Source: a virus. From it: a DNA stretch of 38,105 nucleotides. The DNA lies in IMG/VR virus record IMGVR_UViG_3300025669_000099, positions 1-38,105 of that record. One strand, given 5' to 3'. The notes beneath the pieces were generated by a model, which saw only the letters and a list, made by a program, of their open reading frames with translations, was not told the origin of the DNA and ran no database searches. Positions 1 through 13,592 of the stretch are shown here, one piece after another. The translations under genes and the position numbers were made by a program. Position 1 is the stretch's first letter. Each line of letters begins with the position of its first letter.

Positions 1-99
1 GGAGTTGCAGGAGTTGCAGGAGTTATTAGTATCTTCATCTATTGTATATTTAGATTTATCTAATGGTTTACCATACTGTGATATTGAATAGTTGTTCAT
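1..99 (-). CDS. Truncated N-terminus of a Cys-rich repeat protein (partial at left edge)
   Basis: The frame opens with ATG at 99-97 and stays open to base 1, giving 33 codons beginning MNNYSISQYGKPLDKSKYTI. It then runs into Asn-Ser-Cys triplets encoded by a 9-base tandem unit (GGAGTTGCA on the + strand) right at the edge. TAACCCC lies 8 nt upstream of the ATG, as before several other genes here. The N-terminal pattern reminds me of metagenomic phage proteins that continue into Cys-rich short-period repeats, but this is memory of a pattern and not a domain call. It is read away from the late genes and has its own promoter and structured leader. The rest of the gene lies outside the window. 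Confidence 0.55.
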   Translation of the reverse strand, partial: MNNYSISQYGKPLDKSKYTIDEDTNNSCNSCNS

Positions 100-138
100 A
101 TTATATTGGGGTTATTTAGTTATATTGTTACTACCCTA

Positions 139-252
139 AAAACACCCAACCAAAACAGCTCCGACAAAAGAACCTCAACGTAGTGATTGGGTGTTTCAAA
201 GATAATAAAAACGATGGTGGTTGAGGTTTGAACATAGTTGGTGTCGGAGCTA
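139..252 (-). ncRNA. Candidate H-type pseudoknot leader RNA
   Basis: Three helices are visible. P1 pairs 242-251 with 157-166 (10 bp, AGCTCCGACA). P2 pairs 220-228 with 171-179 (9 bp, AACCTCAAC) inside P1. P3 pairs 184-197 in the P2 loop with 139-152 outside P1, so the helices cross and form a pseudoknot. Read as minus-strand RNA, P3 is 14 contiguous pairs including two G-U wobbles (139/197 and 150/186), and P1 gains a G-U at 156/252. On the + strand these become mismatches, which favours minus-strand RNA. The element starts about 12 nt after the predicted transcription start and ends 40 nt before the ATG at 99. I do not recognise it as a known riboswitch or ribozyme. Confidence 0.7.
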
Positions 253-270
253 AATTTGTTTGCGTGAAGA

Positions 271-299
271 ATACTAACACAGATCCAAAAATAAATCAA
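271..299 (-). promoter_or_regulatory. Sigma-70-like extended -10 promoter for the leftward gene
   Basis: On the minus strand, TTGATT (299-294) is followed by 17 nt and TAGTAT (276-271), with TGT just before the -10. Transcription would start near 264, placing the pseudoknot at the very 5' end of the message. The -10 is imperfect (4 of 6). Confidence 0.5.
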
Positions 300-1468: not shown

Positions 1469-4051
1469 ATGCCAACAGTAGATGAACAAATAAAAGCAAA
1501 ATTAAAAAAACTACCTCGTGAAGATGTGCAGGAATTTTTGGCTATTAAGGATGAGTTGGATAAAAGGCAGGTAGAAAATATGGCTGAAACATTTGTGCCC
1601 AATGTGAAAACAGAAGAGTTTATTAAGCAAGTTGGAGAGAACAAGGCATTTGTTAATATGTTTGTGGCTGCTAATGGGGTTGGTAAATGCCTTAAGAAAG
1701 ATGCTCCTGTTTTAATGGCTGATGGTTATTATAAAAGAATGGATGAAATAGTTGCTGGTGATATGATATTAGGACATGATTATGAAAGTGGATTAGCAAA
1801 ACCATCAAAGGTTATTGACATTTGGGATTCTGGCAAAAAAGAAGTTTATCGTGTTAATTTTAAAGATGGTACATTTGTTGAGGCTTCTGGGAATCATAGT
1901 TTTCCAATGAGAATGAGAAGTGGAAGAAAGTCAGCTATAAAAAAACGAAGATTAGATGAGATTATAGATAGAAAGATAAATAATGTTGGTGGAAAATTAA
2001 AATTTTTACAACCGAAACAAATTGAATTTGATAATAATTCTCATTTACCTATTGATCCATATCTTTTAGGTGTGTTATTAGGTGATGGTTGTATTAGAGA
2101 AGGGCATGGGCTGTCATTTACTAGTTTTGATAAAGAAGTGCCAATTAGAATTGGTAAAATAGTAAAGCAAATGGGAATGAAAATGAATAAATCAAAAGAT
2201 GGTAGTAATAGTTTTAGTATTACTGAGCCATCATTAAAGGCTACTGGGCAGGTGAATAGATTGAAAGAATCGTTAAAAGAGCTTGGAGTATATGGTTTAG
2301 GCTCAGGCGATAAGTTTGTACCTCACATGTATAAAACTGCTTCAATAGAAGACAGAAAGCAGATATTATCAGGCTTAATAGATACTGATGGAACTTATAA
2401 AGAATATTTAAGTAAGAGTAAAAGACTTGCAAATGATTTTGTATTTCTAGTTAGGGGCTTGGGTGGAATAGCGAATTTAAAAGAAAGAAACATAATAACT
2501 AATTTTACCAATGGTAAAGAAAAAACATTTTACAGAGTATATTGGAAGTTTGATTACGAATTACCATTATCATTAAAAAGGAAGCAAAAGATTTCAAAAA
2601 AACCTGTGGACTATTCTAATCGTTTTGTAGAGAATATTGAATATGTTGGTGAGTTTGAATGTATGGGGTTAGAAGTTGACCATCCTAAACATTGTTTTAT
2701 TACTCATGATTTCATTTCTACCGGCAATTCATGTGCTATGGTCAACATCCTAAATGCTATTTGTTTTGGTGCTCCTAAGCATGATCTTAACCGGAGCAGA
2801 TGGAAAGAGAAATGGGGTGTGCCACCTGAATCATTCTTTGATTATCCATTATTTAATGACTTTCCTTATCTCAAGGTGGGTAGAATTGTATCAGATCCAA
2901 CTACAATCAAGATGAAGATTGTGCCGGAACTCAAAAAATGGTTTCCATCCAACAGGTACAATGTTAAATATGATACAAGGAAAGAGGGTAAGCAATACGA
3001 AAGCCGATGGACTACTGATACTGGCTTTGAGTTCGATATAATGACTACAGAACAGGATGCTAAAGAGTTTGAGAGTACAGATCTTGGCTTTATATTGTTT
3101 GATGAGCCAATACCAAAAGCTATCTACAAGGCCTGTATTGCTCGTGGTAGACGTGGGATGATTGTGATTTGGGGCTTCACTCCATTGTCATATTCAGCCT
3201 GGATAAAGGATGATATTTACGATAAGAGGGATGGCAAAATGGTTGAATATGTAAATGCTACTGTATGGGATAATTGTGAAGATGTTGAGGGTACAAGAGG
3301 AATATTAGAAAGGGTAAACATTGATAAAATGATCTCTCAATATGATGAAAATGAGATTGAATCAAGAGTTGGTGGTAAGTTCGGCCACCTCTTAGGTCTG
3401 GTACATAAGGGCTTCGAGCCTAAGATCCATTTGATAGATCCATTCGATATTAATAAAGATGATTATGTTGTGGCAATGGCACTTGATACTCATCCAAGAG
3501 TACCGGATGCTTTGCTATGGATGGCCATTGATAATAAGGGCAGAAAGTTCATCATTGCTGAATTGTTTTATAAGGGTACGGATGCTGAACTCAAGGCAGA
3601 GATACAACGTATTGAGGTTGGTATTAGGCTAATTGATAGGCTTATTGATCCATCGGGTTTTAATGAGGATGATAGAACAACTGAGGTAAGCTTTGGTGAA
3701 AGGCTAAAGAAACAAAAGCTAGACTTTAGGCCTGGCTCTAAAAAGTTGCATGAGTGTATTAGGAGAACTGATAATGCTTTCAAATATGAATATCGTGATG
3801 GCCAGATGATTAGTGCTCCTGAATTGTATATCTTCAGGTCATGTACCGGATTGATTAAGGAGTTGCAAGGTTATGTTTGGGATGAGTACAAAGGTAAAAC
3901 TGCTGATGAGAGGACATCTAAGGGGCAACCAAAGGACAAAGACGATCACTTTATTGAGGATCTACATCGCTTATTGATTGAGGAATATAAGTGGACACCT
4001 ATTATTAGACGTAAAAAGAATACATCATTTAATAAGTTTGCTCATATTTAA
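1469..4051 (+). CDS. terL: Terminase large subunit interrupted by an intein
   Basis: TerL is the ATPase-nuclease motor that cuts and pumps DNA into the prohead. The precursor is 860 residues; removing the intein leaves 513, a normal TerL length. The extein has Walker A AANGVGK-S split after Lys73, Walker B FILFDE (Asp545-Glu546), a coupling-type GFTP just after, and an RNase H-fold nuclease with acidic residues in ALDTHPR (Asp673), LIDPSG (Asp727) and DDHFIEDLHRL (~825-835). Because the intein splits the ATP-binding loop, packaging needs protein splicing. TerS lies before it and portal after it. The start ATG follows the microprotein stop by 3 nt. Confidence 0.95.
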   Translation: MPTVDEQIKAKLKKLPREDVQEFLAIKDELDKRQVENMAETFVPNVKTEEFIKQVGENKAFVNMFVAANGVGKCLKKDAPVLMADGYYKRMDEIVAGDMILGHDYESGLAKPSKVIDIWDSGKKEVYRVNFKDGTFVEASGNHSFPMRMRSGRKSAIKKRRLDEIIDRKINNVGGKLKFLQPKQIEFDNNSHLPIDPYLLGVLLGDGCIREGHGLSFTSFDKEVPIRIGKIVKQMGMKMNKSKDGSNSFSITEPSLKATGQVNRLKESLKELGVYGLGSGDKFVPHMYKTASIEDRKQILSGLIDTDGTYKEYLSKSKRLANDFVFLVRGLGGIANLKERNIITNFTNGKEKTFYRVYWKFDYELPLSLKRKQKISKKPVDYSNRFVENIEYVGEFECMGLEVDHPKHCFITHDFISTGNSCAMVNILNAICFGAPKHDLNRSRWKEKWGVPPESFFDYPLFNDFPYLKVGRIVSDPTTIKMKIVPELKKWFPSNRYNVKYDTRKEGKQYESRWTTDTGFEFDIMTTEQDAKEFESTDLGFILFDEPIPKAIYKACIARGRRGMIVIWGFTPLSYSAWIKDDIYDKRDGKMVEYVNATVWDNCEDVEGTRGILERVNIDKMISQYDENEIESRVGGKFGHLLGLVHKGFEPKIHLIDPFDINKDDYVVAMALDTHPRVPDALLWMAIDNKGRKFIIAELFYKGTDAELKAEIQRIEVGIRLIDRLIDPSGFNEDDRTTEVSFGERLKKQKLDFRPGSKKLHECIRRTDNAFKYEYRDGQMISAPELYIFRSCTGLIKELQGYVWDEYKGKTADERTSKGQPKDKDDHFIEDLHRLLIEEYKWTPIIRRKKNTSFNKFAHI
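1688..2728 (+). mobile_element. LAGLIDADG intein in TerL Walker A
   Basis: The element encodes precursor residues 74-420 (347 aa). It begins with Cys74 and the typical block A run CLKKDAPVLMADG, has a block B-like GNHSF with His143, two LAGLIDADG motifs LLGVLLGDG (199-207) and LSGLIDTDG (300-308), and ends in FISTGN followed by extein Ser421. Splicing restores GKS of the P-loop. The endonuclease motifs retain their acidic residues, so it may be an active homing element. The residue before the terminal Asn is Gly, where most inteins have His; this variant exists in some working inteins but may slow splicing. Confidence 0.92.
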
Positions 4052-12468: not shown

Positions 12469-12633
12469 ATGGTTCATGTAAGTAAATTCACAACAAACGA
12501 GAGAAGAGTTCTTGATAGGGCAGAAGAAAATGCCTACAAGAGATCGCAACCTCGACCTCAAAGGGTGAATCCACCGGTTTATAGAAATATGCAAAATATT
12601 ATCGATAAAGCCAAACGTGGAGAAAAACTTTAA
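12469..12633 (+). CDS. 54-aa basic hypothetical protein
   Basis: ATG at 12469 lies 11 nt after the previous stop in a GATT-ATG context. The product is 54 residues, basic, with a helical N-terminus (TTNERRVLDRAEENAYKRSQ), a Pro-rich linker and a helical tail (NIIDKAKRGEKL). It overlaps no other good gene and fills the gap between two structural genes. Unrecognised; it could be a minor head protein. Confidence 0.6.
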   Translation: MVHVSKFTTNERRVLDRAEENAYKRSQPRPQRVNPPVYRNMQNIIDKAKRGEKL

Positions 12634-13148: not shown

Positions 13149-13592
13149 ATGTCTGATAAAGATCAATTTCCATACGATGCTATAGGTACTGCTACTGCAC
13201 CAGCTACATTAACTGCTGCATATACTGGCAATACTAAAACATTATTATGTAAATATTTACCTCATTTGCACATAGATGCGATTTACACCCCTGAAACAGG
13301 GCAAACTGATAGATATGTTGAGGTGCTTATTGAAGTAAGCAATGATGAGGGCACTACTTTTTATAAAAGAACAGTACAATCCAATTCAACAACTGAATCA
13401 AAGGTTTATGAGGATAATGATACAGGGGTGGCCTTTATTCTACCTGGTGATAAAACTTCTACTGGTGGGGTTGCTTATGATTTTGCTTTTGATGATGCAA
13501 ATGTTATTGGAGATCAAATAAAAATTTCTGCTAGAGAGAGTGGAGCTGCTAACTTTGGTACTTTATCTTTGAGAGTTACATTATCTGATTAA
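13149..13592 (+). CDS. Beta-rich virion protein, 147 aa
   Basis: The protein is acidic, Thr-rich and built of alternating strands (KTLLCKYLPHLHIDAIYTPE, RYVEVLIEVSNDEGTTFYKR, DQIKISARESG, TLSLRVTLSD). It looks like a compact jelly-roll or Ig-like domain. It starts 35 nt after the GAAA-loop hairpin. The location between head and tail genes suggests a head-tail joining or decoration role. No family is recognised. Confidence 0.65.
   Translation: MSDKDQFPYDAIGTATAPATLTAAYTGNTKTLLCKYLPHLHIDAIYTPETGQTDRYVEVLIEVSNDEGTTFYKRTVQSNSTTESKVYEDNDTGVAFILPGDKTSTGGVAYDFAFDDANVIGDQIKISARESGAANFGTLSLRVTLSD

Follow-up and report, generated by a model that had tools for sequence, protein, structure and literature searches.

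The window analysed here is a linear virus record from IMG/VR (IMGVR_UViG_3300025669_000099; 38,105 nt). Its late genes run on the plus strand from position 969 and comprise the small terminase subunit, the large subunit (with a probable intein) and structural genes, and recombination, nuclease and helicase genes lie on the minus strand at 29.6-38.1 kb. The intergenic region between the late and early gene sets contains the element described here, which points towards a gene truncated by the end of the window (Table 1). Only about 30 codons of this gene remain (...NSCNSCNS). The same stretch between early and late genes holds GGGGTAAAGTT modules, repeated at positions 374-425, 689-740 and 778-877; two of them share an arrangement in which 28 nt separate inverted 12-mers and a third half-site is added, and we regard the modules as candidate operators or a candidate origin. 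The large terminase genes of the window (1469-4051) and of contig L003 (1266-3977) each carry a probable intein, which in the window matches a Pfam intein family weakly; part of the similarity between the two terminase sequences comes from this insert.

Table 1. Features of the proposed early-gene leader region (window coordinates)
Feature	Position	Strand	Remarks
Promoter-like site TTGATT-17-TAGTAT	271..299	minus	-35 at 299-294, extended -10 at 276-271 with TG upstream; from sequence; predicted RNA start about 264
P1	252-242/166-156	minus	11 bp (10 Watson-Crick, 1 G-U)
P2	228-220/179-171	minus	9 bp
P3 core	197-184/152-139	minus	14 bp, including 2 G-U
P1 5' arm (P1a)	242..252	minus	pairs with 166-156
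P2 5' arm (P2a)	220..228	minus	pairs with 179-171
P3 5' arm, extended (P3a)	184..212	minus	pairs with 152-124; core 197-184
P2 3' arm (P2b)	171..179	minus	partner of 228-220
P1 3' arm (P1b)	156..166	minus	partner of 252-242
P3 3' arm, extended (P3b)	124..152	minus	core 152-139, then short U run; alternative partner is the start region
TAAC box	111..114	minus	-15 before ATG of leader gene; common to many genes of the phage
First early gene, Cys-rich repeat	1..99	minus	ATG 99-97; cut by window end

Positions 139-252 contain three exact inverted repeats of 10, 9 and 10 bp in pseudoknot order. Read 5' to 3' on the minus strand, the helix arms follow each other as P1a, P2a, P3a, P2b, P1b and P3b, so that P2 is nested within P1 and P3 crosses both, which is the potential for an H-type pseudoknot. 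The element measures 114 nt and its helices 9-27 bp. The original prediction had given helix lengths of 10, 9 and 14 bp, which are correct, but it under-called P3: on the minus strand this helix extends to 212-184/152-124 and comprises 14 bp, a mismatch, 10 bp, a mismatch and 3 bp (27 bp in total). It had also judged such helices very unlikely to arise by chance, and shuffling bears this out. Among 3000 shuffles of the intergenic region 97-970 that preserved dinucleotides, not one placed three disjoint perfect helices, each 9 bp or longer, inside 130 nt, and such a three-helix cluster was likewise absent from 40 shuffles of the whole window.

We asked on which strand the structure is better formed. 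Eight of the 29 positions of extended P3 are not Watson-Crick pairs; six of these are G-U pairs when read on the minus strand, against none for plus (binomial P about 0.003 for their number and 0.016, one-sided, for their direction). These minus-only pairs mark P3 as an RNA feature of the strand that bears the downstream gene. G-U pairs had been predicted to extend two stems on the minus strand only, which holds for P1 and P3, but P2 gains one G-U pair on the plus strand (170-229). Folding of the 99-nt stretch 219-121 gave z=-5.97 as minus-strand RNA versus -1.02 as plus-strand RNA, and 264-97 gave -3.76 versus -2.35. When only 130-270 was folded, a stretch too short to include the whole of the long P3, plus came out slightly better (-3.39 versus -2.64 for minus), and the case for the minus strand therefore rests on extended P3. 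Overall, the reading as a minus-strand leader RNA is well supported.

The promoter in front of the element is less convincing than had been proposed. The elements of a 17-spaced extended -10 promoter are present, but with 8/12 consensus positions the site fell under the threshold of our consensus scan and is weak by sigma-70 rules. The start codon lies 39 nt after P3b, close to the 40 nt given originally, and opens what is indeed a fragment of a Cys-rich repeat protein. Shine-Dalgarno motifs are absent before genes across the window. Instead, 14 of the 41 other gene starts in the window are preceded by a TAAC box beginning at -15 to -13, and TAAC occurs in 21/42 upstream windows versus 4.6 expected from random places. 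The box often reads TAACCC; examples lie at 114-111 (minus), 13611, 27045, 32949 and 35083. It may possibly be an unusual translation-start signal. A TAAC box exactly at -15 supports the ATG assigned to the leader gene.

Can all helices form at once? With the 14-bp P3, the connector between P1b and P3b is only 3 nt long (155-153) and would need to span all of P1. Full P1 and full P3 are therefore probably mutually exclusive, and the H-type pseudoknot originally described stands as far as P3 crosses P1 and P2 but probably not with both helices at full length. Judging from the loop lengths, P3 could still coexist with P2, or a P3 of 10 bp with P1. The predicted fold energy of 264-97 was -40.4 kcal/mol with P1 and P2 and -35.6 kcal/mol with P3 forced. 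Since the two states are near-balanced and hard to hold together, the leader may act as a switch. Outside P3, P3b is predicted to pair with the UAACCCCAAUAU start region, which is then 14% unpaired, versus 62-81% when the fold is constrained to contain P3 or to mimic the pseudoknot. The P3b-start hairpin alone was no better than shuffles (z=-0.47), and for this reason we put the switch forward as a proposal.

Sequence searches agreed with the original statement that no phage RNA of this form is known. No Rfam 15 family scored above its gathering threshold in the window, the best weak matches being far below, and the phage and plasmid collections yielded no match to the leader. A Vibrio plasmid hit covering 31 AT-rich nt (E 0.04) was discarded as chance. 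The sole other copy is on contig L002 from another metagenome, which is 99.99% identical over 9954 nt. The two sequences part at window positions 95-99, once ATGAA of the leader gene has been passed and close to the ends of both contigs; this divergence reflects either variation of the gene downstream of a constant leader or an artefact of assembly. Searching viral contigs for the arm pattern returned the near-identical contig and one match within a DNA methylase gene (L005), which we also attribute to chance because a pattern of 24 fixed bases and two 31-wide gaps has an estimated ~0.3 expected matches in the collection. Queries with the right-end helicase, the portal, the phrog_10048 gene or the L045 gene found no diverged relatives with a leader. 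L128-L132, the closest contigs by terminase, have no other genes in common with the window and no such leader in the parts covered. HDV-like, twister and attC structures were discounted on helix length and order, and nothing favours the ligand sensor or ribozyme that had been suggested.

We then looked for the same architecture irrespective of sequence. Terminase profiles yielded about 150 related loci, whose intergenic regions were searched, after removal of duplicates, with an H-type pseudoknot scanner that requires two contiguous helices within fixed loop limits. At a score of at least 52, 10 of 524 regions were found versus 0.0 from shuffles; the scanner was written after the window had been seen, the window is one of these ten, two others (L028 and L034) are mutually homologous, and L108 is doubtful. 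At a score of at least 48 there were 13 regions versus 0.5 from shuffles. None was found among 99 regions of more distant relatives or 97 regions of eight control records. The excess over shuffles is thus clear, whereas the difference between the clade and the controls is weak (about 0.04, estimate). Nor was the enrichment replicated in 34 kb of L237 and L238 (Parcubacteria), where no element reached the set threshold. The hit in L108/L013 (score 52) is doubtful because its P1 arm falls within a coding frame and its hairpin is part of a repeated element; it was counted nonetheless. In the L108 contig a structured element (CTTACCCATCAACCC...) occurs twice, in diverged form, at 12539-12618 and 13215-13295. 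The highest-scoring candidate of one scan, in L158, was rejected because its P1 arm lies upstream of its own promoter.

Leaders of the same topology precede start codons in L045, L161, L135 and L166. In L045 a promoter with 11/12 consensus positions (TTGACA-17-TATATT) is followed 7 nt past the -10 by P1a; the leader has a 12-bp P1 and a 12+9-bp P3 with a U tract, and the start codon of a 758-aa gene without Pfam match follows 27 nt on. The L161 leader stands directly downstream of TTGACT-17-TATAAT (11/12) and has helices in the window's order (ATTAACC/GGTTAAT, CCGCTAAAGG/CCTTTAGCGG and TAGCACTTAGG/CTAAGTGCTA), then AAAGGAG and ATG; its P3a has a local competing partner, CUUAGGUGUUA. L135 combines a 21-bp P1, about 11 nt past the -10, with a 10-bp P3, and its start codon lies 1 nt behind the element. 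In L166 three helices cross one another 9 nt before the start codon. L028 and L034 have a 20-bp P1 with one compensated pair between them and a less well kept P3; a 654-aa portal-like gene and then a small ORF precede the element, and an acidic, scaffold-like gene follows it. These large pseudoknot-capable intergenic RNAs (L028 9480-9689, L034 9160-9360) are 78-85% identical and have no Rfam match. The nested P2 is significant by shuffling in the window only; in L161, L135 and L045, P2 or the outer helix is not. Since the same topology recurs at different genes without shared sequence, the recurrence argues for a function of the fold and does not imply common origin. The genes behind these leaders differ, and no common regulator is therefore evident.

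Two known phage systems come closest. The gene 32 mRNA leader of T4 and RB69 contains a pseudoknot of about 28 nt, with adjacent UUAAA/UAAA repeats before gene 32, which is a translational operator bound by gp32, so that the gene is repressed by its own product (PMC535899). As there, a pseudoknot in the window's 5' leader would act in cis from a place 5' of the mRNA start region and is followed by a loose A/U-rich stretch of ~40 nt holding the start site, and in both the fold can persist through changes of sequence. In contrast, the window element spans 114 nt with helices of 9-27 bp and precedes a Cys-rich repeat protein fragment rather than a known single-strand binding protein gene. In phage HK022, the putL RNA folds just downstream of an early promoter (PMC9378689); put RNA suppresses termination further downstream. 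The put RNAs, however, are about 70 nt long, consist of two stem-loops without a pseudoknot and are conserved in sequence, whereas the window has crossing helices, a larger element and a weak promoter, and the arrangement of two stem-loops in ~70 nt adjoining an early promoter was not found. By analogy, gene 32 would be the nearest in working and putL the nearest in position, and membership in neither class can be claimed. Pseudoknotted riboswitches and leader motifs in Rfam resemble the element in the cis control of expression that is predicted here, but they are recognised by conserved sequence and their stems are much shorter.

From the structure potential, the strand preference, the place before a start codon and the recurrence with related terminases, we infer a transcribed, regulatory leader. 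The explanation we favour, with a confidence that stays a little short of even, is a pseudoknotted 5' leader of the early minus-strand operon that acts in cis on translation initiation and/or mRNA survival. RNA synthesis would start shortly upstream of 252, and the nested P1/P2 hairpin would fold first. Its loop (P3a) would then capture the downstream strand P3b, forming an H-type pseudoknot ~40 nt before the start codon, and would affect the downstream gene after transcription has started. In the most specific form, P3b would pair either with P3a, giving the knot and an open start region, or with the TAACCCC start region, closing it, with the balance set by a phage or host protein or by folding kinetics. 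Of the earlier idea of a regulatory leader with its own promoter, we retain a minus-strand, pseudoknot-capable RNA at the 5' end of the first early gene's mRNA, with a weak promoter.

Transcriptional control is an unlikely though serious alternative. The element would then be a promoter-proximal attenuator or antiterminator, in which a terminator made of P3 and UUUUUA is set by P1/P2 or RNA polymerase is modified in the manner of put. Its position right behind the early promoter region is like that of putL (PMC9378689), and a U run follows P3b here, with a stronger one (UUUUGUUUU) behind a GC-rich hairpin in L045. However, the 31-nt P3 loop is long for a terminator and outside the limits of our scan, which called no terminator at the site; the similar leaders in L135, L161 and L166 lack a U run, and sequence conservation of the put kind is absent.

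We consider it improbable that the knot is purely an mRNA stabiliser, shielding the 5' end from 5'-end-dependent RNases without any regulatory switch. Control of RNase E decay by 5'-terminal base pairing is established (Bouvet and Belasco 1992, as cited in PMC3997798) and provides a precedent, the architecture recurs without conserved sequence, and P1a follows closely behind the -10 in L045 and L135. Against this, about 12 nt would be unpaired at the window's predicted 5' end, and a plain hairpin would suffice.

A free-standing, trans-acting small RNA that ends at P3 and precedes the gene by position only would explain the compact fold and the U run at its 3' end, but is very improbable given a start codon with a TAAC box 39 nt behind it and similar elements whose ends lie 1 nt (L135) and 9 nt (L166) from the following start codon. 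We can hardly credit a role at the DNA level, as inverted repeats that bind a protein or as a site of replication or packaging close to the terminase genes: the adjoining region 374-877 does contain repeated modules of the operator or origin type, but six of the eight P3 imperfections are one-strand-only G-U pairs, needless for DNA, and the arms lie 37-75 nt apart.

A scan of 84,980 prokaryote genomes matched the terminase lineage only in two Parcubacteria assemblies, L237 and L238 (46-47% identity). This is a lineage-level hint at CPR hosts for part of the lineage, in which binning errors are possible.

It is possible, though we hold this rather more doubtful than the leader itself, that very large H-type pseudoknots at mRNA 5' ends are a general regulatory device of this phage lineage, which has a large terminase in common, serving early and late operons and conserved in architecture rather than sequence, and that the window's copy opens and closes its start region by strand exchange of P3b. 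Pseudoknots in phage mRNA leaders are already known; this one is unusual in its size, and its architecture recurs. An architecture that recurs at phage gene starts without conserved sequence would escape Rfam-style searches, which need sequence and covariation. The leader would make a small system in which to study how a knot and a blocked start site might interchange. If our reading is true, phages of little-known bacteria bear a class of large mRNA-leader pseudoknots.
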